This document shows positions 3,278 to 55,400 of a stretch of DNA of 64,000 nucleotides, one piece after another. The stretch covers positions 25,544,001 to 25,608,000 of the forward strand of contig NC_079884.1 of the NCBI RefSeq assembly GCF_029227915.1, given 5' to 3'. This DNA comes from Hydractinia symbiolongicarpus (lineage: Eukaryota; Cnidaria; Hydrozoa; Anthoathecata; Hydractiniidae). How positions within the stretch are numbered: position 1 is the stretch's first letter; the number at the start of each line of letters is the position of its first letter. The position numbers were made by a program, and so were the translations under genes. Below the pieces are notes generated by a model, which had not been told where the DNA came from, did no database searches, and saw only the letters and a program-made list of their open reading frames with translations.

Positions 3278-4392
3278 TATTGTGTTTAAAATTCTATTAT
3301 TTTTTAGCCCTCCCCCCTTCTATTAAGCCCCTCTGTGTAAAACCTCCAGACTTTAATAAGTCCAAGATTTTTTTAAAATGCATTTTACCATACTTATTTT
3401 GCGAAACTGAATTGGTTAAAGCCAAATGTTTTTTTAGCCAGGAGACGCAACGTGATTTTTCTTACCACTAGAAATAGGCTAGAAGACTAGAAGATAGACT
3501 AATCATGCCTAACAGGCAACTAAAAGTATAGAAGGAAATGAAAACAGAAAAAAAATTAAAGTTTACAGAAAAACATCAAATGCATAGACAAGAGTTATAG
3601 CAAACAACAGAATAGACATAAAATCCAACGTAATTTTTCTCGGGAATTCAGAGAAATGTGTTGAACTAAATTTCAATATCCTCAGAGAAAGCTTACAGAA
3701 AGAATAATGCGCTAATCGAGTCAAAAAGAGTTCAAATATTCCAGTTTGCTTGTTCTTCGGTAAAATATTTCGCCGTTTTAACATTGATGTAAATTTATTG
3801 ATACTATCGTATCTTTAACAATCTTTTTCAGATATAACCCAACATTTCATACTGTAAAAGTACCTCACATGCCATGTTTACGTTTGCAGCATTCTAGTCC
3901 GTCTTCGTATTATTTTAAATTTAAAAATTTGCCCTGCGTCCCTGCATTTCAGGTCCCACCTTTTTCATATGCTATCACATTACACAACATACCAAACCAG
4001 CACTTTCTCTCCCATAGTCACCCGAGGGTTAATAAAAACATGTTCTTTTCTTGTCTTGCATTCTTCTATGTACATAAAATATACAAAATATTTTTGTTAC
4101 AGTAAGCATCACACGAAATATATATTATTTTTACAGAGCAGCTTGGAATTTGAAGAAATGCGATTTTAAGTCGAGCAATAGGAAAAAATAATACCTCTGA
4201 TGCCAACTTTATGTCAGCCGAACTGAATCTCGAGTATCCGATCCTTGGTAGTGAGCTGTTATCACTATTTGAGTTAATGAGACACATATGGTAAATTCTT
4301 CAACAAATATATCCGAAATGGTATGTGATGAGCCGTAAAGGAAATACATCAGTAGGCAGCTAAAACTCCAACTACACCTATGAAATCCTTTA
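3278..4392. other. Convergent intergenic region
   Basis: AT-rich spacer between two 3' gene ends. It should contain the 3' UTR of the tryptophan-repeat gene. I see no repeat family or further exon here. Confidence 0.5.
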
Positions 4393-20495: not shown

Positions 20496-23400
20496 ATGGG
20501 TTGTTGTGGTAATAATGAGGCTGAACCAATTGAATTAAACCAGCATGGTGTTGAGGATAAGGAGCCTGCTGGACAATATGGTACAGTTCCTTACCATTTT
20601 TAGAAGTGATTGCACTGAAGTCAATACACCTGTAAGTTTTATTTTTGTCGTTTTAGGTAAATCAAGGAAGTATGACCCCAATTTTAGTGGACCGATTAAA
20701 AATAGGTATGTATTTTTATTAATAAAGAAATCTGTCTTATATATTTTTTTCTGTTAATTAGAAGAAATTTAGAACCAAAATAAGAAAAACAATACCTAAT
20801 CATTAGTTATATCTAAGCTTAAAAAAAATTTTAAAAAAGGATGCAGATATATTTTGATTATTTTATTTTTTTTTAGGATCTGAATACATTTTATTCTTCA
20901 GTAATTTTTATGTCCATCTGCTTATATGTTGCAATCTTCATTTGCTGTCAATCTCATTCACAGGCCTTCTATACCTCAATCTCACAAAAATGTCTGCTAC
21001 CATATGTCAATGTATATGCTAACATACCATAATGGTTAAAGTCCTCTCTTTCAATAAGTACGGAGCCAACTCGTGTTACTGAAAATAGTAGCACTCTTAT
21101 AGACTTGATACTTTCTAACAGTTCTTGTATTTCTAAAACTGGTGTCATGGATTTAGGCATCAGTGATCACAATTTAGTTTATGTGATCAGAAAATTCAAA
21201 AGGCCAAAATTTGAACCTAAAACATGCAAGGTTCGTAGCTACAAGAACTTCAGTGAAGAGGTTTTTCTGAAGGACCTCAGGAATTTAGACTGGTCATATT
21301 TTAATAATTATGGTGACCTTGATAAAGCATGTGAGAAACTGAATAAAAATGTTAAAACAGTGGCTGACAAACATGCCCCTTTCAAAACACATAGATTTTC
21401 TGGCCGTGTTGAGGCATGGGTCACTGATGAATTAATAATAGCCATCAAAGAAAGAGACTTCTTGAAACGGAAAGCATCAAAAACAAAATCCATCATAGAC
21501 TGGGAAGCTTCCAAACAAAAAAGGAACCAGGTAATAGGTCTCAAAAATCGACTCAAAAACGAGTATTATAATGACGTTTTGCAGGACTTTCAAAAACGGC
21601 CAAAACAACTTTGGAAAACCCTAAAAAAACTGGTTCCTGATAAGTCAGGCAATACTACCTCGATAAAACGAGTAGTCCAAAACGATGGTACAGAAACTTC
21701 TCACCCAAAAGAAATTTCCAACACATTCAATTCATTTTTTGTCAGTGTTGGTGCCAAACTAGCCTCTAAATTTTCTTCTGACACTACTAATGTTAATCCA
21801 CCTGTTAGCGGACACGATTTTCGGTGGGCTCGTATTGAGACCAAAAGTGTCGAAAAAATAATTAGATCACTAAAACTTAATAAAGCTACAGGCTTGGACG
21901 GAATTGGTTCACGACTGCTAAAAGCAGGTTCGTCAGTTTTAAGTATTTATTTATCAAGTCTTTTCAACAAATCTTTATTTACTGGTTATGTACCTAAATG
22001 TTGGAAGACTAAAAGGGTCTCGCCTATTTTTAAAAGTGGCAATAAAACAGATCCTACTAATTATCGGCCTATCTCCATTTTGCCAATTCCTATGAAAATT
22101 TTTGAAAAGTTAGTGCATGAGCAAATGTCTCATTTTATTTCTGAGCACAACTTCCTGAATGACAGACAGTCCGGATTTCGAAAACTCTTTTCCACAGAAA
22201 CTGCAGTAGTCGATGTCTCTGATTTTATTCTTACTGAGCTCGACCAACATAACTTTGTTTGTGCTGTGCTCATTGACCTTAAAAAAGCTTTTGACACTGT
22301 TGATCATAAAATTTTGTTAAAAAAACTATGGTGTTTTGGCATCAGAGATGCTGCCTTTGACTGGTTCGAGTCCTACTTAACGGACCGAATGCAGCTGACT
22401 CTTGTAAACGACACAGGATCAGATCTGCTTCATGAAGACGCTTTTGGGGTGCCGCAGGGATCTGTGTTGGGGCCCCTGCTCTTTCTTTTGTATATTGATG
22501 ACTTAAAATCTGTCATCAATTCAAACTACCACCATCTATATGCGGATGATACAATAATTATTTCGTCTCATAAAAACTTGGATACCCTTGTCTCCCAGGT
22601 CGAGTTAGAACTTTCGCAAGTCGACCTCTGGCTGAATAATAACAAAATGACTATTAATACGGACAAAACTGAAACAATCTTTTTCGGCAACCACAGCCAG
22701 TTAAAAAAAGTTGAGAACAAAACTATCAACTATATGGGTATTCCTTTGAAGAGGAGCGAAAAAGTTAAATATCTTGGGGTAACATTTGATCAAAAAATGC
22801 AATGGGAAAAGCACATTAATGACATAAATAGAAAAATACTAATTAAATATTCTAAAATTAGAACCATTGCATCCTGTTTAACACCTCACACAAAAAACCT
22901 TTTAATTAATGCACTTGTCATGCCATATTTCAACTACTGCTCCTCGGCATGGGCTTGTGCCACCCAAGGTAGATTGGGAAAACTAGAAAAACGATTAAAA
23001 TGTGTCCGTACCTTTCTTGGGAAAGAGAGGGAATATTCAATGAATAATTTACTCATCAAAAACGATGCCATATTAGTTTTCAAAGCCATGAATCACATTG
23101 CTCCTGATTACATGCGCTCAAAATTCCTTTTGACAAAAAACTGTCATAATCATCAAACAAGAGGAGCTTCAAAAAACAGGTTCACACTTCCCTTGGTCAA
23201 CACGGAATTTGGCAAAAAAGCCTTCCCATTTAGAGCTGCAAAAGTGTGGAATAATCTTCCAGACCAAGTGACCTGTGATGGAAGTCTGCTTTCGTTTAAG
23301 ACTTCCATCTCTAATGTATTTGGCAAATTCTAATGGAGATCACTTTTGAATTTTTTAATTTTTGTTTTTTATTCTTTTTCTTTTCAATTTTCACAGATTA

Positions 23401-29400: not shown

Positions 29401-32400
29401 TACTAGTTGTATTACATTTGTCTCTTCACTTGTGTGGTCATTGTTTTAAGGTTGTATGTCTCTTCACTTGTGTGGTCATTGTTTTAAGGTTGTAGCAGAC
29501 GTTCAGGAATCTTGGTATTGGATTCTCGCGTGAGTAATTTTAAATTCAAAATTTTTAAAATTTGAAAATAACCGTTATTGACTTTCCACACTGAGTTTTT
29601 TCAACACGGTGTGTTATAAGCCAACACCGTTGACCGTAAGTATTAGATCTTATCGCGGAAGAGTTGACATTTACTTTTTTTTTAAGCTGGTTAAAAAGTA
29701 GAGGCAGTGTAGTTTTTATTATTTCTTTGTCGGACGATATACTCGTTATCTTCAGCTCATGTCGTCATTTTTGTGCGACAAAATGTTCGCCTGAAAAGGT
29801 GTTTTTGTCTTCTACAAGCCATGCTGTTTTCTTTCGGATTTTTAACTTGTGTTTCTTCACTGCAACTCAGTAAACTTCGTGTCGCTTCTAAGGCGTCACT
29901 AAAAGAGTTTACGAGCTTCAATACCGGTAACATGATAAACATAGCGCCGAAAGTTATCGTCATTGCGGTTGCAAATTTTCCTAGTAAACTTGCTGGTACA
30001 ATATCTCCATAGCCCACAGTTGTGCATGATATTAAGCTAAACCACATTCCATCAAATATCCCGCCATCGCGAAATTGCGAGTTATTTGCGTGTGCTTCAG
30101 CAAAGTAAATAATACTTCCTGATATCACGATAAAGAAGGCTAAAAAACTGACGAGGATTTGCAAATCTGTGCGACTCTTATATATGGTGTAAATAAGCAG
30201 TCGAAGTCCGTTTGAAAATCTTGTCAACCGAAACACTCTGAACGCGTTGGCGAGTCGGAATACTTTCAACACACTGGTCGATGAAGCCTGTGCTGAACTT
30301 AGCGCTAGAGAGCTGAAGAAAATTACGAGTGTTATCAGGTCAGTTAGGTCAATCCAACTTCTGACGAACTGTCTTTTCTGTGGACATGCCCACAGTCTTA
30401 GGGAATATTCTAGTGTGAACCATGAAAAGCAAACTATTTCGATGGGAAACATGTCGCGATGAACAACACTAGTCTTATTGTGTTTGTCACCTGGATGTAA
30501 ACATGTTAAAATTATAGAGATGAGAGTCATAACAAGTGAAATCGTGGATAATATTTGTGCCCCATATGAACTCTCTGGGTTTTGTAAAACATTCCAAATA
30601 CGTCCCTGTCTGCTTTTTGGCGTGCTCTCTCTTTTCGAAGGCGACAAAACGAACTTCTTTGCTTCTAGTGCATCCTGCAGGAACGCGCAGTCGATTTTAA
30701 AAAACTCCAGTTCATCTAGGAATACCTCTTCTGGTACGTTCTCTGGACACACTACTCTTCCGAAGCGTTGATAATACATTAATATTCCTTCGAAAGCTAG
30801 TCTGTGTCTGTTGAAAAAATAAACACCTTGACTTGGGACAAAATACTGGGTCCGTTCTTGCGGGTCACCCAACAAAGTGTGAGGGTATCTTCCCAGGCAT
30901 CTATCTGTCGTCTCAAAAGTGGCTCCGCTTACGTTAATTACCAAGCGTTTCATATCTGTCTTGGTTCTCGTTGTGAAATTCTCTCAGCTCGATGTTGTCG
31001 TGTCTTTTTTCTCTGTGTGTGTGTGTTTTTATACAAATTCCCTGCAGTGTTTTGTGGTAAAAAGATAAAAGTTTTTATTCTGTTTTTTTTCTCTAATAAT
31101 TGAGATGTTACAGCTTGCTTTCACTCTTTATAACTCAAATTTTAGTGTGTTTATTTTCTTTTTCAAATGTTCTTCAAAGCATTTATAATTTTAATAAACT
31201 CCTTTTTTTTAATACGTCTTCAAAACTGACTTAATTTGAGTTTTGTTTTGTGCTTGCAGCTGGCTTGAGTGAGAACTTTAACACACAGACAGCTCTCCTC
31301 AGACCTTTTTTTCGCAGTGCTCGTGTGATACAAACTATTTTTGCAGCATTTGTGGGAGGACGTGTATTTGTTTGCCTACACGTTTTAAACGCATTTCAGC
31401 TACCATCTTTAAATCCCTGTTTGTTTTTTGTTTATTTATTTTTTAATTCGTTGATTCCTTCATTCATTCACTTTTTCCTTCTAAGTTTCAATAAACGTTG
31501 GCGGTCAAGTGCTCAATTTCCATAACATAAAGATGGTAGCGTTTTCTAAGTTTTTGTTGGTTGTTAAAATGTTTGTTTACAAATGCTTGCACGTTGACGA
31601 AAGTTGTCAAAATCCAGGCATCGCGACCAGAATAAAAATTTTAAAGCGAATGCCCAAATACTAAACACTGAGAGTTATGGTTAAAGACAGACTAAGACGC
31701 AAAGCAAACTATAGGTAATAACTGAAAGTTTTAATGAAGAAAGATCACAAAAATTTACTTTGTAACCAAATTTGTTTTGTGTGCAAGTGTGTAAGATGCA
31801 CGTTTGAACTGAAGAGGAAATGCGCCTGTTATTTTTCACATAATACAAAAAAGCAGAGAAAAAATATTTTAAACAAGAAATTAAAGGCGTAAAAAATAGT
31901 TAATCTTTTTATTTGTATGTTTAGCCTTTTTTATACATTGTTGAAATATAAAAATAAAACTTGTGAAATAAATACAGTTTCAACGAATTTATATTGCACG
32001 CAATATTGGGCATATGCACCTGGGCCTTATACTTTTAATCCTAGCAAAGCGGTATTGTACGCACCTGTGTAAAAATAACATCTTTTGGCTTTGTAACACA
32101 CGACGCCCAATAGGGTATTTCTTTTGCAGAAATTTTCAGGAAAACCTTTTCTAATGACTTGATCGATTCGAAATTGGTTACAAAAAACTTATTTATATCA
32201 TTGAGTGACATCATAACTTTTCTTTGCAATTTACATTTGAAACACTGTCATCGGTGTGATTTCTGTGCTCTTACATCGGTGTAACCTACCCAACTTCCCT
32301 CCCATGGAATGGGTTTACCTGTCGGTGTGGTAACAACACTTGCTAAACATGCTTTTAAGAGACACCAAGCCACCGACACTGTCATTTAAAAGCGCACATT

Positions 32401-38111: not shown

Positions 38112-39552
38112 ATGACGGGTTTTTTGTATGTTTACACGTTTCTAAATTGACGGCGTCTTTTAAAAGTTCGCGTCTCATGTTTTGACCACGTATTTAAATT
38201 ATATTGCAAAGTTATATTGTATATTTTGTTGCGCCGAAATGCCTAAACGTTGTCGTTAATTTTTCCGGTTTGCAGAATGTCAACGTCTTAACCATGTAGA
38301 ATTGATCATGTCAGCACATTAATTTTGTAAATTCTTTTGTTTTAGTTTTTTTCGTGTAAACGGTGATTAAGAAACTATTTTATATGAAATTTTAAAATCC
38401 AACCCTCTCCCCTTGAACTTTTTATCCCATTTAAGATTTGCTTCCACGTTTGGAAAACTTAACGTAGATATAATCTATTTTGATTTCTCATTTAATTGGT
38501 ATCGTCTCCCTGAGTTGAATAATCTTTGACTAGATGTATATATTGATAGATGTTTATATTTGCACACGGACAGTTTTACTTTAGTTCTGGTGTTTTTTAG
38601 TATTTATACTTAAATGTATATCATGCCCATGTTTGACACAAATTTCGCATAGTTTTTTTATATAAATTATAGTTGTATAGATTGTTTTTGTTGATGCTAG
38701 TAACAGCAGTGACGCTTTTGTCATTTTTACGCCCGTATTGACGCTGTTTTTAATTGTCTAACTCTTAAAGACAGTCATTCAAAAGCAGATTTCTACTTTC
38801 CACCTGCCAAAAAATAATAATACCGAATATAATGGTTGTTTTTGCTAAACTTGTCCCACTCGTTTTGAATGAACAAATTAGAGTAGTGAATTGACCTGGC
38901 GCACCTCAAACACTTGATAGAATGCATCTTCCTACAACTCACTCAAAGCTGCGACTAGTATCATCAAAATGTTGTGTGAATAATAAGATTGTGATATAAA
39001 ATTTTGAAAAATAAATTATAATAACATACTTGCTAGTTTTTGTCTTTGTTTCGTAATGTTGTTTTTTTCTGTACACCATTAAAATTTTGTTTTTTATTTT
39101 GGCATTAGTTCAATTTAGCGTGGATTTAAAGAAACTTTCGTGGAATTAATTTTCTCGAATAACAGGCAAAATGAGTTGATGAGTTTTGAAGAATTTAATT
39201 TCGCAACTCACTATAATTCTGTTTTGAATTTAAAGTATTTTTTTTGCTGAATACAAGCACAATGGATTATTTTTGCATTTCAGACGGGGTTTCGGCGACA
39301 AAAAAAGATTAGTCCATCTGAAATTCTCTATTTACAACAGTACAAAACATAACGCAAAAAAGTTGTATTAAAAACAGAATTATTGAAGGTAGTACAGCTA
39401 AATCCTTACATAGAGGACACCTATATGAAGAAAAGTTTTCACTATGTGCATGATTTCACTGTAGTCAGGTAGCAGACAGCATAAAAATGTTTTTAAAATG
39501 TCCCTGGATGGTACATACTTCTCCATTTTTGTTGTTGTCTCCTTCCTGACTA
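38112..39552. other. SLC44 3' UTR and spacer
   Basis: Includes the probable 3' UTR of the SLC44-like gene, with an AATAAA signal at 39010. The remainder up to the transposon is AT-rich without recognised features. Confidence 0.5.
39010..39015 (+). terminator. Candidate polyadenylation signal for the SLC44-like gene
   Basis: AATAAA about 0.9 kb downstream of the SLC44 stop, followed by a T-rich stretch. Other AT-rich variants occur nearby, so the exact end is uncertain. Confidence 0.35.
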
Positions 39553-39593
39553 CCTTAAGGGAACTTATTTTGGCGGGAACTAATTTTGGCGGA
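39553..39593 (+). repeat. Left terminal inverted repeat
   Basis: 41 bases that are the exact reverse complement of 42989-43029. It contains two GGCGG blocks 21 bases apart that begin the subterminal array. Confidence 0.95.
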
Positions 39594-39772
39594 CGAAGGA
39601 AATCTAAAAAAAATTTAATTTTGGCGGGAACTAATTTTGGCGGATCAACGAAATTTTTAATTTTGGCGGGAACTTATTTTGGCGGGTGGCGGTTTTTTTT
39701 AATTTTGGCGGGAACTTATTTTGGCGGGTCAGCGGATTTTTTAATTTTGGCGGGAACTAATTTTGGCGAGTG
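39594..39772 (+). repeat. Left subterminal repeat array
   Basis: Direct copies of a motif of about 28 bases, AATTTTGGCGGGAACT followed by TATTTTGGCGG or AATTTTGGCGG, separated by short AT-rich spacers. The block at 39638-39766 is nearly identical, in the same orientation, to 42836-42967 at the other end. In pogo, hAT and CACTA elements such arrays are transposase binding sites; that role here is inference. Its translation looks like a repeat protein but is not a gene. Confidence 0.9.
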
Positions 39773-39866
39773 AAGGATTTTTTCAAATTTCAACGAAAAT
39801 TTTCTTTGGTAAAGATGTAGAAATAAGCATTACAAAGCAAAGAATTTTAAAACAAATACTAAAAAT

Positions 39867-41707
39867 CTACTCTTCTTCATCGTCTATGATAATGTCAAAT
39901 GCATTCCGACTAAAGTCTATGTCATCCTCGTCACGCGTGTACTCCTCTTCTTTGTCATCGTCATTTTCGACTCGCACGTTGATGAAGCTATCCTTTAATA
40001 AATCTGGCGCATTGATTATGTCGGTTATGGGCTGAGTAATTACACTATTGCTTTCTGGCAGCGGTGATAGATCTTGAAAAGGGTCAAGGGATTCAAGTGA
40101 AGTGGATCCCATGCGAACTGCGTCGTAAATTCCAGATGCTTTCCACCCATTCAAAACGACTTCACGGCCATCTGCCGAAGTGATATGGTTATAAAACTGG
40201 AGGAGCCAACTTGCATGAAGAGGCTTGATGGTGGTCAGCTTTAATTGAATATTTATATCTTCGATCTTTTTGTTAAGGGATAGCTCTTTCTCGATCTGTT
40301 TTGAATACCATTCAGTGAACAAATTTCTCATGAATTGCTTGCAATGATTATTCACAGTAAGATCCAAGGGCTGGAATATATGTGTCATGTTACTTGGAAC
40401 CAAAACCAGGAAGATGTTGTTCTTCTTCAGCAATTCGGTAACTTCCTCAGTAATTTGTCCTCGAAAGACATCGAATATTAGAAGAGCAGCTTGCTTTGGG
40501 TTATTTAACTTCTTCCTCTGGTCTTCAACGTGCTTTAGAACGATCTCTTTGATGACTTTGATGGATTCTTGTGTATTGCTGTAGTGTTTGGGATTAACGC
40601 TTAGTGAGAACGATTCGGGGAATTCAAACTTTGGGAGGCTTTGATTTGTTTTCCCCCCATATATCAGTTGCATTGGCAGAAAAGAACCATCAAGCGTAAT
40701 AATAAAGGTACCAGTAAGGCATCTTTTGTCGAAGGATCCAACGATAGGGACGGACGATGAACCCTTTTTCGCCATGGTGTGATTCATTCTTGGAACAAAC
40801 TTAAGAGGTGTCTGGTCCAGATTCATAACAAGTTGGTGAGGGATGCTGTGTTGTTCGATGGTCGAAACAATATCGTGAAGAAATAGTAATTCGCACTCCT
40901 TTTTGGCTCCTTCAGTGATTTCAACTTTGGAGGTCGTTTTCATTCTTTTCTTGAAACCCATTCTCTTGAAGAGGCTTTTTGCCCAACTGTTATCAATTTT
41001 AATATGCCCCAACTCAAATTGAGGGTTTCGTGATATTAGAGCTTTCGCTGCAGCGGTTGCAACTGTTCTTGAAACAACACCTCCTCGATTTCTCAGTGCA
41101 ATTAAAAATCTTTGTACCATCTCATCTAGACTGCCAAGGAACAGAGGTCTACCGCGTTTCAAAGGAACAAATTTGGTTACCACGCTACGTTTTTCTCGGG
41201 TTGAATCTTTCAGCTCTTTTTTGTAAAGATTGCCAAATCTTCGAGCTGTACTCTCACTTAACGGCCTGTCTTTGGTTTGAAACTTTGTGATTGCAGCCGC
41301 ACCACCATGAATCGCAACATATTTTCCGATATCAAATCTTTCTTTTTCTGACCAACGGTTGTATGATTTTTTGCCACTGGATTTAACATTTTCAGTCGCG
41401 TCTGTAACAGCTTCGTAGTCTAACGAACCAAGGGATGATTCTTGCTGGAAGTCAGTTGGTTGTGGGCCTAAAATGAATAAAACGAACCACTATGTAATTG
41501 CGAATTTTGACCAAAAATTAAAAATTTTCAAACAAAGAAAGAAACTTCTTCGCAGGTAGGTATAACAAAAAAAAACATCAAAGAGAAATACTTACTTTGT
41601 TCCCTAGAACTGTTTGAAGGTGTTTCGTCTGAAGTTTTTTCCTTTTCAGCGGCCCTTTGTTGAGCTTCTTTCTCTTGTAATTTAGCTAACTTCCTGATGT
41701 AAGACAT
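39867..41707 (-). CDS. Pogo/Tigger-like DDD transposase (570 aa, one intron)
   Basis: Exons 41707-41596 and 41467-39867 join in phase (donor GTAAGT, acceptor TTTTAG), giving 570 residues from ATG 41707. Residues 1-37 are a charged helix. Residues 72-124 form a first helix-turn-helix (SYNRWSEKERFDIGKY…), and 139-220 a CENP-B/Tc5-type DNA-binding domain. The DDE_1 catalytic core has D255 (NLDQTPL), D370 (LLIFDVFRGQ) and D406 (IFQPLD), a DD35D arrangement. It would bind the terminal repeats and cut and rejoin DNA in the nucleus. The last 17 residues are acidic and include DIIIDDEEE, a SUMO-interacting-like motif. Stretches outside the core match no named family I can recall. The reading frame is open throughout, so the protein is probably functional. 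Confidence 0.93.
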
Positions 41708-42062
41708 TTTGAAAGCCGGGAGATAAAAAAGGAAACGTAAGTTATCTGTATCCTGTATATTTACTCGAACATAAACATTCCATTCACTTGGCCTATATTT
41801 ACACTAAAAATCGAACAAAAACATTCTTTTTTTCTTGGCTAAGGCCCGTTTAGACTACCCAATCGAACAAAAACATTCTTTTTTTCTTCGCTAAGGCCCG
41901 TTTAGACTAACCAATCGAACAAAAACATTCTATTTAATTGGGAAAGTTCGGTCTACACTGACAAATAGAACAAAAACGTTCTATTTTCATGCTAGGCAAT
42001 TAAAAAATCGATCGATTGACATTTTTGTTTTTCATCAGAGCTAGAAAAGAAAAGACGTCCAT
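41708..42062. promoter_or_regulatory. Shared divergent promoter region with tandem repeats
   Basis: 355 bases between the two start codons of the transposon's divergent genes. It contains three to four degenerate tandem copies (about 41806-41985, period near 51 bases) of a unit beginning AATCGAACAAAAACATTC and including GCTAAGGCCCGTTTAGACTA. The repeats are distinct from the terminal arrays. Their position suggests binding sites that coordinate both genes, which is inference. Confidence 0.6.
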
Positions 42063-42713
42063 ATGGCTTACAACAAGACGTTCGAGTTTACAGCTGCTGT
42101 CAGAGGATTCCATTATTATAAAACTTATTGGAAACCTGAGGAAAATCAATCACTGGACTGCTTTCATGAGAACAACAATGTTTTCGATAGATTTGCAATC
42201 AAAGTTTGTGAATTCGGAAATGACAAACCAGTTGGCCATTTACCCAAAGAAATCTCAAGGGTTACAAAATTTCTTCTGGACAGAGGAGCGTCTATGAAAT
42301 CCACGTTGACAAGTGTACACTATCGAAGATCACCTCTCGTTCAAGGAGGCTTGGAGATCCCCTGTAAAATAACTGTTACTTTACCAGGGACAGTAAACAA
42401 TCTTTTGGTTCTTGCAAGATACCAACAACTTGTAGAAGCCTTGTATACAGAGCCGAAAGAGGAATTGATTCTTGGTTCGTTCTTACATATTGCAGTTATT
42501 TTAGATGTCGTGGTTCCAACCGAAGAGAGACCAAAGCGTAAAAAAAATACAGCCAAAAGCCAAAGCAAAGAGACGAAAAAGCAAAAAGATATTCGAAACT
42601 TTTTTGGAAACACCTCAGCTGCACCAGCCCCAAAAAGGCAAAAAGTTAACAACAAACCTAAAAAGTCGTCACCATCGTCAAGCAAGGACTTAGAAATCAT
42701 AAATATTGATTAA
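42063..42713 (+). CDS. Transposon-encoded HIRAN protein with PIP box and SUMO-interacting-like tail
   Basis: 216 residues, one exon, ATG at 42063, divergent from the transposase. Residues about 7-108 match the HIRAN fold: VRGFHYY, then HENNNVFDRFAIKV and VGHLPKEIS. In HLTF this domain binds free 3' DNA ends at stalled forks. Residues 110-150 are a hydrophobic extension. The tail is Lys/Arg-rich (RPKRKKN 157-162; KRQK 191-194, likely nuclear signals) and holds Q174-K-D-I177-R-N-F180-F181, an exact PIP-box consensus (QxxIxxFF) for PCNA binding. The end, DLEIINID, fits a SUMO-interacting motif (I-I-x-I with acidic flanks). No helicase or nuclease domain is present. Role as a replication-linked transposition cofactor is inference; the domain and motif calls are seen directly. 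Confidence 0.9.
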   Translation: MAYNKTFEFTAAVRGFHYYKTYWKPEENQSLDCFHENNNVFDRFAIKVCEFGNDKPVGHLPKEISRVTKFLLDRGASMKSTLTSVHYRRSPLVQGGLEIPCKITVTLPGTVNNLLVLARYQQLVEALYTEPKEELILGSFLHIAVILDVVVPTEERPKRKKNTAKSQSKETKKQKDIRNFFGNTSAAPAPKRQKVNNKPKKSSPSSSKDLEIINID

Positions 42714-42822
42714 AAATTATCTTGTATTAGAGGTTTATTATGACATAATATTTCTAGCGCAAAGGTATATTTCTAAAAGATATAAAAAATTGAAAAAAAG
42801 TTGATTTTTGTCGATTTTTTAA

Positions 42823-42988
42823 GGGGAACTTATTTTGGCGGATCAACGAAATTTTTAATTTTGGCGGGAACTTATTTTGGCGGGTGGCGATTTTTTTTAA
42901 TTTTGGCGGGAACTTATTTTGGCGGGTCAGCGGATTTTTTAATTTTGGCGGGAACTAATTTTGGCGGATTTTGCCCCAATCCGCCAAA
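42823..42988 (+). repeat. Right subterminal array and fold-back
   Basis: Starts AAGGGGAACTTATTTTGGCG and repeats the left array in the same orientation. At 42950-42968 the last plus-oriented copy is followed after about 20 bases by its reverse complement (the right terminal repeat), so the right end can form a hairpin that the left end cannot. Confidence 0.85.
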
Positions 42989-43029
42989 TCCGCCAAAATT
43001 AGTTCCCGCCAAAATAAGTTCCCTTAAGG
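42989..43029 (-). repeat. Right terminal inverted repeat
   Basis: Exact reverse complement of 39553-39593; followed by TA at 43030. Confidence 0.95.
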
Positions 43030-43459
43030 TATTTAGTTATACACTGCCAATCGAGCATTAGAATCTATCCGCATGTACAGGATGAACTGTATTCATTATA
43101 GTCTTATATTGTTGACACACTATGGCTAGAAAACTTGAAAAATTTCACCTGGGTCTGAAAAAGCTCAACCCTTGCTTTTTCTGTTTGACAATTGCTTCTG
43201 TAGATAAAACTAAAACCATAAATATTAAAATAATTTTTCGTAGCAAATTAATAAATTATATTTATTTATATATATTATATTTATATATATTTACACACTT
43301 ACCGTAAAGTGTTAAAAGCACCAATTAAAAAATAAATTCACTGGTAAAAAAAACAAACGCAGAACTGATAAATGGACTGGTTGTCACGCGACTCTTCGTG
43401 GCATGCAAGTACTCCACCACAGAGGATTTTTATTCGCATAAAAAACATCACATCTTACG

Positions 43460-49400: not shown

Positions 49401-52400
49401 TTGCTAATTTCATGGTGAAAAATTGCTAATGTATCCTAGGTGATAATAACAAACAACATCAACTGAATTTAAAAATATATTAACCTACATTTACAGTTGC
49501 ATCACCATTTGATACAGCTCTTCGTTTTCGAAATGATTTCAAACTAACATAGGTATCAACTAATTTCTTTTCAAGACCACTTTGAAATGCTCTTGTAGTG
49601 ACATCAACAGATGGATGCACATTTATGACAATCTTCAAGTTGTTATTAACAGGTTTTGCTGTTGTTTCTGGCTCAGCAGTCGTTACCGGAGTTGTAGAAG
49701 CTACTGTCATTGATTTAGAAGGTGCCACTGAAAAGGAGAAAGTATGAATCTCTCTACTTTGTGATGAAGATCTTGTTGGTTGAATGGATGGTGTACTCAA
49801 TGACTCGTATGTTGTCAATTTGGTAGTCAACTGGCTACTGAAAATTGTAAACATGGATTTAACAGTACGTACAGTAAGTGATGACAGTCTGTCACCAGTT
49901 GATAAAGTTCTTGTGGAATAAACAACAATTTCGGAAGATTTATACACATAACTTGTCGATAGGCTATTAAGAACCTTTGTTATTGTTGTTTCTTTGTTTC
50001 TTGAAGTTTGTGTTTCTGTTGTTCGTCTAAGGCTAGTTGTTTCTGTATGAAATGTACTGTTTGATAACATTAAAATGGAAGACACAACAGAATGAGATGG
50101 CGTAAATGATGTTAACAGACTCTGAACATTTGTGTGTGGGACATTACCTTTTGTGTATAATGATGAATAGGGGTACGTTTGTGTATATGCTGAAAGATGT
50201 TGAGTTGTCACCACTCCAATTGCAACTGTGTGTTCAGATGGTGAATGGGTGCTTGTGAAATGCGTTATTTTAGAAGCAATACCTGACATTGAACTTGAAG
50301 GAAATAATTTTGTTGTAAAAACAGGAACCAATGTTGAGTAAATTGATAAACAAAGGCTTAAGGTAGATGTGTGAACAGCAATATTGGACAGCGAAGTTGG
50401 GCTGATTGTTGATGACAAATTTTTAACCAGCGATGTTGCAATGATTTTTGATGACAAATTTTTAACCAGCGACGTTGGTATTGATGTTGAGGTATTTTTC
50501 AACAAAACTGTATTTGATGTAGTTGTAATAAAGGACCTTGTGGTTACAGGCATTGAGATAATACCTGATTCAATATTTGTTTTTATTACGGTGGTAACCT
50601 TCGAAAAGCTTGATTTGACTGCAGCAGTAGACAGGATGTTTGATAAACCGGTATTTGGTGTACTTGTAATGACGACCCTTGTGTTCACAAGTGTTGAAAT
50701 AAAACTTGACCCAAGATATGTCTCTGTTACAGCAATAAACTCCGACAAGTTTGATGAATTTTCCACTGCTGTCGTAAAGAAGATATTTGAAGTTGTTGAA
50801 AGTACAGATGAATTTTGTGATTGGGGAAATATTGAGGTTGCTCCACTTGTGTTTGAATATAAAGTGGAATTAGAGTTTGTGGAAAACTTTCTGGTTGACA
50901 TTGAAGTTAAACTAAAATTTGTGACTGTACTTTGGGCTTTGGATGTTGAAGGGTGGTTGGATAATGTTGAGTTGTGGTTGGATAAGGTTACAAGGGACTT
51001 ATATGTTGATAAAAGCTTTGTCTGCATAGTTGTGCTCATTGTAAAGGTTGTAAATGATGGTTTCACACTAGTTGACAAAACATCTGACAAATTGGTACTC
51101 TGTGTAGCATTTAATAAAACACTATCATTTGATAATGAATTGTTGTTTGAATCAATTGCTCTTCTCCTTCTTTCGGTTCCAAAGGATAACACACTAGTTT
51201 CAAGTTCATGACTAGATGATTGTGCAATGGTTGACCTTCTTTGCACTGTTTGATTATCTGACGATTTTCTTGATAAGGACGACGATATTATAAAGCTATC
51301 TTCCACAGTACTAGGCTTTATAGCCAATAAACTGCTGTGATATGCTGATGAGGTTAAAAAAGTAGTTTTGGATTGACCCAAAGAAGAGTCAGCCATTGTT
51401 CTAGAAGGCAGTACAGAAAGCAAAGCAGATGATTCAGATGATTTTTTAAAACTGGTTGCTTTAGATCGATCTAATGGCATGGTTGTTGTAAAATTAATAC
51501 CCATAGAAGTTAATGATTTGATGCTCTTTCTAGTTGTTGAATACATTGAAAAATGATTACGACTGATAGTGGGTGTAGGTACTACAGAAGAAGAACTAGT
51601 GTTTAATACACTAGAATTCCATGTATAGGTAACAAAACAAGGTACGTATGTTGAAACAATGACAATGGTATAAGACGGACTTGTTGACAGTAAAGTACTA
51701 GATATTATTGGTACACTTGTATCCAGATTTGTTGGTAGAACAGTATTTAATGATATTGAAGAAACATTTTTCGTAATGGTACTTCCTTCTTGAAGTCTTG
51801 ATTTGCTAGTATTAGATATTGAAATTCTTGTGTTAACTATTGAAGGTGTTACATTAGAAGATGTCGCTGTAAAGTGATTGCTACTAAAAACATCGGTTGT
51901 TGACATTTTAGAAATATTCCCCATTGAACTTCTTATTGAATGCAGTGGTGTGGTCAGTGTGGACAGTACCGTAATTGAGTGTTTATTCAAAGTTGATATA
52001 TATGGTTTCACACTATATCCTCTACTGCTGCTATCAATTGATGCAACAGTTCCAATTGATGTAACAGTTCCAACTAACGTACTGGTTTTAACTGATGTAC
52101 TGGTTCTAATTGATTTACCAGTTCCAACTTGTGTACCAGTTCTTATTGATGTACCAGTTCCAACTGATGTACCAGTTCCAATTGATGTACCAGTTTCAAT
52201 TGATGTACTGGTTCTAATGAAAGTACCAGTTCCAACTGGTTTACCAGTTCTAATTGATGTACCAGCTCCAATTGATGTACCAGCTCCAATTGATGTACCA
52301 GTTTCAATTGATGTACTGGTCCTAATGAATGTACCAGTTCTAACTGGTGTACCAGTTCTAACTGGTGTACCAGTTCTAACTGGTGTACCAGTTCTAACTG

Positions 52401-55400
52401 ATGTACCATTTCCAATTGATGTGCCAGTTCTAATTGAAGTTGAACTAATCATTTCAGTGGGTAAACTTAATGAAACGCTTGACTGTAAACCAATTTCTAT
52501 GCTTACAACAGAAGAGTTCATTAGGGGTATATTAGATGCAATGCCTCCTGTTGTCAGTGTTACTAAGTTGCTTGTGCTTGAGATTAAAGATGAATTTCTC
52601 ACTGCAAAGCTTGAAGAGATCAAGCTCGAAATTTTGCTTGTTTTGTAGCTTGGTAAAGTTGCAGATACACCAGGTACTAAAAAATAAAAAAAATATTACA
52701 GAACAATTTGGTATCAATATTATAAAAAAGTCTCTGACTTTTAAGTAATTTTTTTCAAAAATAGTTTATAGGAAGATCATTACATAGAGCATAAGGGTTT
52801 TTTATGCCTCAGGTAAAGTGAAGACTTAATGAGCTGAAGAAAATGGTTAACAAGTCTAATTTAACAAGCTTTGTTACCTTAAGATCCCTTAAAAAAATTT
52901 TTTTCATATTGTTATCACTAAACTATAATTATTTGTTTACACATAGTTTAATGATAGTTAAATTATGTGAAGACACTACAAAATCATGGAAAAGTTTTAA
53001 TACAATATTTCTTAAAAGAAATGTAAACAAATATATATAAACTATGTGTGTTTTTTATATAACTTCATTTTTAATTTTATGTTCAGTTAAGCCTTGGAAA
53101 CACTAGAAATTTTTTTAGGTGCATTATATTCGCATAAAACATCTCTTGTTTAATTTTAAGTGCAAAATATGCTGTAACATTCTATACATTAATTAAGCAA
53201 GTGTTTGGCTGTAGGGCATATTACTTAAAGCTTTTTTTACTTCTAGATGAGGATGAAAACAGAAACAAAGAGTTTTAAACTAAATGAGAAACTTAAGTTT
53301 GATTATAGGTACAAAACAGAGACCAGTTTGGAGAGACTTGATGAATTTTCAAGAGTTCATAATAATTAGGCATTAAGATTTTATCTGCATTGATACAAAT
53401 CAATTTAATTTTGCCCAGAGGTAAACTGTGAAAGACTTGGCGGGAGGGTATAACGACTGACTTGACGGAAAGGAATTTGAGTTTAGATCCAACACATTCC
53501 AGATCAGACTGAAAGGAAGTTATTAATATATCCTGTCCAATCCACGCTAACATGGAAAACAGACGTTAAGCCAAGAATGATGATGATGATGAAGACATTT
53601 TAAGTTATAACAATATTGCCATTACAGCTCTCTTGCATAGAATTTGAAGCAAATAGAAATTTTTTTCTAAAACCTTTCCTGCATACTTGACATTAAATAA
53701 CTCAGATAATTTCACTTTTACTACTGATTTTTGTTTGTGAAAATTAAAACCTTTGCCTATCTAGCAATTTTAAGCTTTTCTTCAAATATGTGAGTCACAT
53801 ATAGGCAACTGTTTTCAAACATCTTGATTGGTTGATCAATAAAATGCTGCAAATAATATGTTGCAGCAAGTGACTACACCTTAGAAAGTTTACAAAATAA
53901 TTTTTTTAAACAACAAAAATATGTTGCAGAAACGTGCAACAAAATAAAACTCAGTTTATTTTCTTACAGTGTTTCTGCAACATTTTCGGCATAATTTTGT
54001 TGCATGGCGTGCTAAAAAAACATGATGCATTTTTCAGGCACATCACATGAAGAATACTGCTTGTGTCCACAAGGCTTTACTAAGGACAAAAATACACTTT
54101 TTCATTCAAGTTGCTGGCTCATCTTCTGTACTAAAAAAAGGAAGTAAACACAGTGAATGTAATAAAGCTTTGAGTGAGGGAAATATGAATTGTTTATTCT
54201 CCAAAGAAATTACGACGCCATCAGCAGTCCCCCTACTCCCCAACATATGTAAAAGAATGGGATATGTGCCTTCATGAATAAAAAACATGTCATAGCTCTC
54301 GCTACAGAATAGAAATTTGGCTAGTTTATAGAATATACCCCTGTTTGCTTCTAGCTATATGCTTCTTTTAATAGATAAAATAAAACTAAAGAAATAAAAA
54401 AACCTGTTGCGCTTTTCTTCGTTGTATTTTGACATAATGTTGGTGCGTTTAAAACCAAAATTGTATATAAAAGATAACTAAGACAAAATGTATTCGTTGT
54501 AAAATAGTCCATATTTTTAATCGACTTTACATGATGTGCTACACTTTGCCTATTTCAAAATGCGAATGTAGCGAGGTTCCATTTATTTTGTTGTTTTGAT
54601 TCGTGATTGCGCTTCAAATGAATCTTATTATGGAATTTTTAAACAGCTGCCCTGTTGAATTAATTCATGTTTGAACTTACTGTAATAAAAATATATAACT
54701 TTGTATACAGTTAAATTTTATTGTGTGTAACCATTTGTCGCGGTAATTCAATGTGCTTCGACGGGGATGACTTTACCGAAAACATAGCAACGCATCAACA
54801 ACCTTGTATCCAAGAGAGGGATTGGAAGTCAGTTGCCCGTTGGGACAGAAGAAGACAATGATACAAATAGAAAAAATAATGAAGCATAAAAGTATTTATT
54901 TATTAAAACAATTTGTTTGAAAAAAACATGATTCGTCATTTAAGCAATTAAGTATTTCCTCCAAGTAACATTAATTAGTTATTGCATAAGATGCTACAGT
55001 TTTCCTTTTTCATAAAACTTTTTGACAGTAAGTTATAATTTATTAGACAAATTTCTTTTTGAATTTGACTTTTTGCACGCCTTGTTCCTATCACCTGTAT
55101 TGCACGTTTTACAACTTATATAAATGTCCCCAGGGTATCTTTTCTGAGATTAGGACGGCAATTTCAGAGATTGCACAACGCGCTTTTTATATAAGAAAAA
55201 AATTATAAGTACACGAGCCTCAGATTCTGCTTGAGAATATAAGAACAAAATAAGAATAAATTCAGGCTCGAATCATTGCTTTCATAGCTAACAACAACCT
55301 GAGCTCGTATTTTAAACAAGAACATTCTAGGATGTAATTCTCTCTTAAAATAACTATTACTTATGGTTGTTTCTTTTCACTAATTCGATTGTTTATAAAC

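Follow-up and report, generated by a model that had tools for sequence, protein, structure and literature searches.

A 64,000-nt window of the Hydractinia symbiolongicarpus genome (contig NC_079884.1, positions 25,544,001 to 25,608,000; "the window" denotes this whole stretch, and coordinates count from its first letter) contains a 3,477-bp pogo-like transposon at 39553-43029, in which a transposase gene is paired with a second gene encoding a 216-aa HIRAN-domain protein. Our data indicate that the HIRAN gene is almost certainly a dedicated component of the element: the pairing is kept in all other copies of 3,477 bp and recurs in divergent lineages within the same genome. The role we propose for its product, a link between transposition and DNA replication or repair, is more tentative.

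The terminal arms, at 39553-39593 and 42989-43029, pair as reverse complements without a mismatch across 41 bp, and a repeat search extends them to 48 nt at 96% identity. At each end, two 16-bp iterons lead inward into arrays whose 42-bp units are built from the iteron box. The two genes point outward, head to head, on either side of a central region that contains a 52-bp repeat and presumably serves as a bidirectional promoter. From left to right, the features of the element are as follows:

39551..39552, unstranded: left target-site duplication TA (TA on both sides in 24/24 scorable copies)
39553..39593, + strand: left 41-bp terminal inverted repeat, containing two 16-bp iterons, GGAACTT/A + ATTTTGGCG (perfect match to right arm; 16-bp period)
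39614..39790, + strand: left subterminal array, 42-bp units from the same ATTTTGGCGGGAACT box as the iterons (Tandem Repeats Finder, TRF; repeat search)
39867..41467, - strand: transposase exon 2, with the DDE_1 catalytic domain, D255/D370/D406 and an acidic C-terminus (Pfam; spliced frame)
41468..41595, - strand: predicted GT-AG transposase intron (read from the sequence; spliced frame open)
41596..41707, - strand: transposase exon 1, 112 nt (spliced frame)
41798..41935, unstranded: intergenic 52-bp repeat, 2.7 copies (TRF; repeat search)
42063..42713, + strand: HIRAN accessory gene, 216 aa (open reading frame, ORF; Pfam HIRAN)
42063..42482, + strand: HIRAN domain proper, residues 1-140
42582..42605, + strand: motif QKDIRNFF, residues 174-181, resembling a PCNA-interacting protein (PIP) box, in the low-confidence tail (conservation counts)
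42696..42710, + strand: conserved C-terminal IINID, hydrophobic plus acid (conservation counts)
42824..42969, + strand: right subterminal array, 42-bp units (TRF)
42989..43029, - strand: right 41-bp terminal inverted repeat (repeat search; reverse-complement match)
43030..43031, unstranded: right target-site duplication TA (flank reading of copies)

An original prediction, made from the letters of this stretch, had described perfect 41-bp inverted ends with TA flanks enclosing two intact, divergent genes for a DDD transposase and a HIRAN protein, and all of this was borne out. Once spliced, the transposase frame runs uninterrupted for 570 aa and has the triad D255, D370 and D406 (DD35D), and its match to Pfam DDE_1 is above the cut-off (E 2.4e-10). 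The match to HTH_Tnp_Tc5, which like CENP-B_N is an N-terminal DNA-binding domain of the pogo superfamily, falls below the cut-off (E 0.027, 14.9 bits, cut-off 22.2). The HIRAN frame matches PF08797 at E 7.8e-8 (32.5 bits, gathering score 24.7). Among related loci (numbered with an L), DDE_1 matches are weaker, the transposase fragment of L065 falling below the cut-off, L068 lying above it and L066 giving no match. A PDB search with the transposase returned nothing significant.

The 35 residues between the second and third catalytic aspartates fall inside the 29-59 range given for the pogo superfamily in a survey of its families (Tigger, Passer, pogoR, Lemi, Fot and Mover; PMC7386202), which the element resembles in its DDE_1 domain, DD35D triad, TA duplication, 41-bp ends and 3.5-kb size. 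These features, rather than a tree, suggest a pogo-like variant. We use "pogo-like" because the HIRAN gene departs from a transposase-only content and recurs in other lineages: PMC7386202 assigns pogo elements one or two ORFs for the transposase, and the word "HIRAN" does not occur in its main text. Besides this second, unrelated gene, the element differs from described pogo transposons in its subterminal arrays and in its transposase, on which no PIP box was found either in exon 2 (pattern search) or in exon 1 (by eye); the strict pattern was likewise absent from five transposase fragments of lineages C, D and F.

Using the leftmost 101 bp as query, we looked for further copies in the genome (480.9 Mb, 76 contigs); 40 of 61 candidates were scored, so that copy number is a lower bound. 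This search, which the original prediction had suggested, gave at least 24 exact matches (window included) and one match over 91 bases. Of the 24 other copies, 16 match the window copy's length of 3,477 bp, two are slightly shorter at 3,475 and 3,468 bp, five are internally deleted (1,102-2,698 bp), and the shortest measures 195 bp. TA lies on both flanks in all 24 scorable copies (window copy counted, occupied sites read), with L019 excluded for a right end without its last 2 bp. Given 23 exact left ends elsewhere, the 91-base match and TA on 24 of 24 flanks, the arrangement is not due to chance. The original prediction had made its two-component idea depend on full-length copies keeping the HIRAN gene, and they do: both frames are open in all 16 other 3,477-bp copies, whose HIRAN proteins are identical. 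Thirteen of the 16 are identical to one another and are separated from the window copy by a common set of nine differences. The element is a recently mobile, young family with many intact, near-identical copies.

The five mid-sized deletions take out much or nearly all of the transposase, leaving HIRAN whole in L011, L017 and L026 and partial in L010 and L022; the 195-bp copy, L032, has neither gene between its TA flanks. The window copy differs from all 16 others at seven bases in the right array, where positions 42915-42937 (element 3363-3385) match a segment of the left array and its sister L009 has other sequence, a change suggestive of conversion or slippage involving both ends.

The HIRAN gene extends well beyond this family. 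A protein search of the genome gave 784 candidate places. The 150 that were scored comprise 24 from the window family and 126 that match at 36-61% identity, some of the latter being two pieces of one locus. We searched 17 loci for transposase sequence with tblastn, hand-picked from the 150 scored, mostly as high-scoring open frames, several sharing a lineage, and thus not a random sample (L064, L066, L067 and L068; joined stretches around L082, L085, L086 and L087; and nine 801-bp windows upstream of HIRAN genes, L093-L101). Transposase sequence was present at 14 of the 17, in every case on the strand opposite to HIRAN and divergent from it, and in 12 of these 14 the match includes the catalytic domain (the L086 locus and L097 match the later part only). 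Transposon ends recur as well: those of L064 read CCTTAAGTGG and are flanked by TA at either side, the 41-bp inverted repeats of L067 and L068 are perfect, and L066 shows 90% over a 41-bp repeat. When both genes were compared among lineages A, C, D and F, C and D were closest (transposase 74%, HIRAN 64%) and F was distant from A, C and D for transposase and HIRAN alike. Because both genes agree on lineage relationships, HIRAN and the transposase seem to move as a single unit. A one-off capture of a host gene, which the original prediction had named as fatal to its idea, can be ruled out, since divergent lineages share the head-to-head layout and both genes agree on those relationships. Searches of viral contigs, prokaryote genomes and phage records found no viral or prokaryotic relatives (best PHROGs E 0.12).

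Ratios of nonsynonymous to synonymous substitution rates (dN/dS), calculated from 17 HIRAN sequences, suggest that purifying constraint accompanies this co-inheritance. Values were 0.10 for the window versus L057 (synonymous rate dS 4.0, near saturation), 0.107 for L068 versus L086 (dS 2.7) and 0.27 for the window versus L086 (dS 2.2); the other eight between-lineage pairs were saturated at synonymous sites, and among fetched places L073 and L085 (no frame) and L082 (frameshifted) were excluded. At the sequence level, nonsynonymous change between lineages is well below synonymous change, as in a recurrent, selected component of the whole lineage.

The predicted structure of the 216-aa protein is an HLTF-type HIRAN fold, the comparison the original prediction had called for, at 18-22% identity to the HIRAN domain of HLTF / Rad5, and the residues predicted to bind a 3'-OH end are partly conserved. 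The protein is free-standing, lacks the SWI/SNF and RING portions of HLTF, and has a PIP-like tail of its own. Past residue 143, this tail is basic and variable save for a DIRxFF motif and the last residues, and the tail block is modelled at a predicted local distance difference test (pLDDT) score of 49-69. QKDIRNFF reads as a canonical PCNA box with basic flanks in a flexible tail, predicting PCNA binding.

To count motifs, we took the best 120 of 826 HIRAN homologues found by protein search in public sequence data, window protein included. The strict PIP box (Qxx[ILM]xx[FY][FY]) occurs in 27 of the 120, DI[RQH].[FY][FY] in 77 and DI[RQH].[FYML][FYL] in 87. The C-terminal end [IVLC]x[IVL][DN] is present in 71, 66 of which also have the DI motif, and many of the homologues without an intact end look truncated. 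In a tail alignment of 49 sequences, I177 is invariant and D176, R178, F181 and D216 are each at least 90% conserved, figures that lean high because the set was hand-picked from the 120 with many shortened sequences left out. Loose motifs in a disordered, basic tail fit a PCNA box, since known PCNA partners vary likewise: among curated partners, Q is absent in 34% and one aromatic in 43% (PMC6881253). PCNA motifs are also described as lying mostly in disordered regions and as gaining affinity from positive flanks.

The tail motif, which the original prediction had not mentioned, independently supports its idea of a cofactor tying transposition to replication or repair, the mechanism of which we still infer. 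The HIRAN domain would hold a 3'-OH DNA end and the tail would dock on PCNA; the protein might in this way bring the transposase complex to primer-template junctions, forks or repair gaps, and transposition could thereby be timed, or reinsertion steered, to DNA under replication or repair. We put this forward as a working proposal that may well be wrong, and do so because the HIRAN protein has predicted equivalents of both activities of TnsE. TnsE belongs to the bacterial transposon Tn7, which carries several further proteins. Recognition of recessed 3' ends and of the beta clamp, sending Tn7 to replicating DNA, is reported for TnsE in a 2017 review (PMC5371812). The likeness is one of function: here too a non-catalytic protein encoded by the element is predicted to combine recognition of 3' ends with a sliding-clamp motif. 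Targeting of forks has been reported in the case of TnsE; for the HIRAN protein the comparison stays at the level of analogy. The same review records that Drosophila pogo transposase binds PCNA and that the box is conserved in Tigger and Lemi1, and calls its relevance unclear (PMC5371812). In Drosophila pogo, then, the clamp box is on the transposase, whereas the element described here has a putative clamp box on a partner protein. A broader version, in which the protein would be a lineage-wide clamp-and-3'-end target selector, a convergent eukaryotic counterpart of TnsE that directs transposition preferentially into, or to the time of, replication, which the elements would exploit to gain copies, seems doubtful to us.

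Several observations weigh against the readings above. Among the 49 aligned homologues, the position of HLTF R71 is H in all 49, that of N90 is N in just 18, and that of K113 is K in just 10 and R in 24. Q stands at the first motif position in just 24 of the 77 homologues having the aromatic pair. Across eight aligned genome lineages, the strict box occurs in just two; four have the aromatic pair (both strict-box lineages included), and in the other four M occupies the place of the first aromatic, with neither aromatic left in one of them. In lineage D (L066, L075 and L076), the protein ends right after the motif and the conserved C-terminus is absent. A plain PIP box would not need the D and R of DIRxFF to be almost invariant, and another partner, perhaps the transposase, could explain this. 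As regards the gene's place in the element, tblastn found no transposase match at three of the 17 loci (L067, the L087 locus and L096). L067 looks like a deleted copy, since its sister locus L098 has transposase; similarly, L057 is a shortened copy with transposase end pieces recognisable by eye, and its sister L101 has transposase. Finally, HIRAN change within families looks neutral (synonymous to nonsynonymous changes 9:13 in E, 7:17 in F and 2:12 in D, lineage C being omitted as its lengths differ), as expected for copies after insertion.

An account nearly as likely as the coupling model, and possible on present evidence, keeps the HIRAN protein within the reaction itself: it would act as part of the transposition complex or help to repair donor and target gaps, holding 3' ends exposed on the excised element or at the gaps beside it while its DIRxFF tail binds the transposase, and would take no part in locating forks. 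The HIRAN fold and conserved end-binding residues would suit whichever 3' end is exposed, the near-constancy of D and R would suit an element-specific partner, and the left-array segment in the window's right array, absent there in L009, is what template-slippage gap repair could yield. Against this, the motif of the element matches the textbook PCNA box and has basic flanks, and the pogo transposase is itself known to bind PCNA (PMC5371812).

The protein might instead target the host, vying with proteins of the HLTF/Rad5 type for access to 3' ends and PCNA and so dampening fork reversal or further responses that hold transposition back, or it might regulate element activity; we consider this unlikely. 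It does join two ligands of HLTF-type fork remodelling, and PMC11237066 describes an isolated HIRAN domain as a dominant negative of HLTF in vitro. Five of the six shortened copies also retain HIRAN, whole or partial, with the transposase largely or nearly all lost. However, no host phenotype is known, and this retention may be accidental, since such copies are few and recent and within-family changes look neutral; for that last reason, selection keeping HIRAN in transposase-less copies is unsupported. It is very improbable that HIRAN is a passenger between the ends with no part in transposition. The gene-less L032 between its TA flanks may have transposed with no gene in cis or may have been reduced to its present size where it stands, but lineages about 50% identical retain the HIRAN frame, most pocket residues and the layout, and dN/dS is 0.10-0.27 in three unsaturated pairs.

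Two-gene eukaryotic cut-and-paste transposons with a transposase and an accessory gene include Harbinger (Myb-like protein), MuDR (mudrB) and En/Spm (tnpA), in each of which the accessory protein is other than HIRAN and the transposase is of another superfamily. A HIRAN-carrying transposon was not described in the literature searched, and a description may exist in a database (Repbase) or subscription journal. The present element places a putative clamp box on a separate, deletable, non-catalytic protein having a 3'-end-binding fold. If the coupling model is true, the link between cut-and-paste transposition and replication would be directly testable in a eukaryotic element, and in some eukaryotic transposons jumping may be coupled to the replication or repair of DNA; the HIRAN protein may also serve as a tool for directing insertion or end repair.

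The ends of the element bear on how it is recognised. With ends reading CCTTAAGG, a duplicated TTAA was considered in place of TA and ruled out, since TA lies outside CC..GG in 24 of 24 flanks. The iterons of different lineages keep an ATTTTSGCG-like core, and the seven bases between cores vary between lineages (by eye); these seven are nearly alike in both iterons in A, B and E and at one of two ends in C, less so in D and F. With its constant core and lineage-specific intervening bases, the pattern is read as a putative binding site for an element-specific protein. The window arrays (39553-39790 and 42824-43029) repeat TTTTGGCGGGAACT, where lineage B has TTTTCGCGGGAA and lineage C TTTTCGCGTGGA. 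TTTTGGCGGGAA / TTTTGGCGGGAACT of the window arrays matches what we take to be the E2F consensus. Host E2F sites at the ends are possible; an element-specific site is likelier, since lineage C carries TTTTCGCGTGGA.

The transposase of the window copy has F283 (40732-40734), whereas S occupies this position in each of the 16 other 3,477-bp copies. The window copy, frame-intact as it is, is therefore not the family majority sequence, and its transposase may be impaired. F283 adjoins a DKR motif in the catalytic domain. The transposase end DIIIDDEEE (39870-39896) and the HIRAN end EIINID (42696-42710) are both hydrophobic-plus-acidic and resemble SUMO-interacting motifs. Two full-length copies, L030 (C1:11065175) and L029 (C1:11111320), lie 46 kb apart in the same orientation with differing immediate flanks; a local hop and chance neighbours are both possible.

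Elsewhere in the window, a 728-aa ORF at 21147-23333 (+ strand) resembles, by eye, the reverse transcriptase of a non-long-terminal-repeat retrotransposon and has a very similar piece in L063. A 398-aa intronless ORF at 29757-30953 (- strand) resembles, by eye, a voltage-gated potassium channel. A 1,013-aa Ser/Thr-rich ORF occupies 49480-52521 (- strand), with an 18-bp (108-bp) repeat array at 52035-52437.

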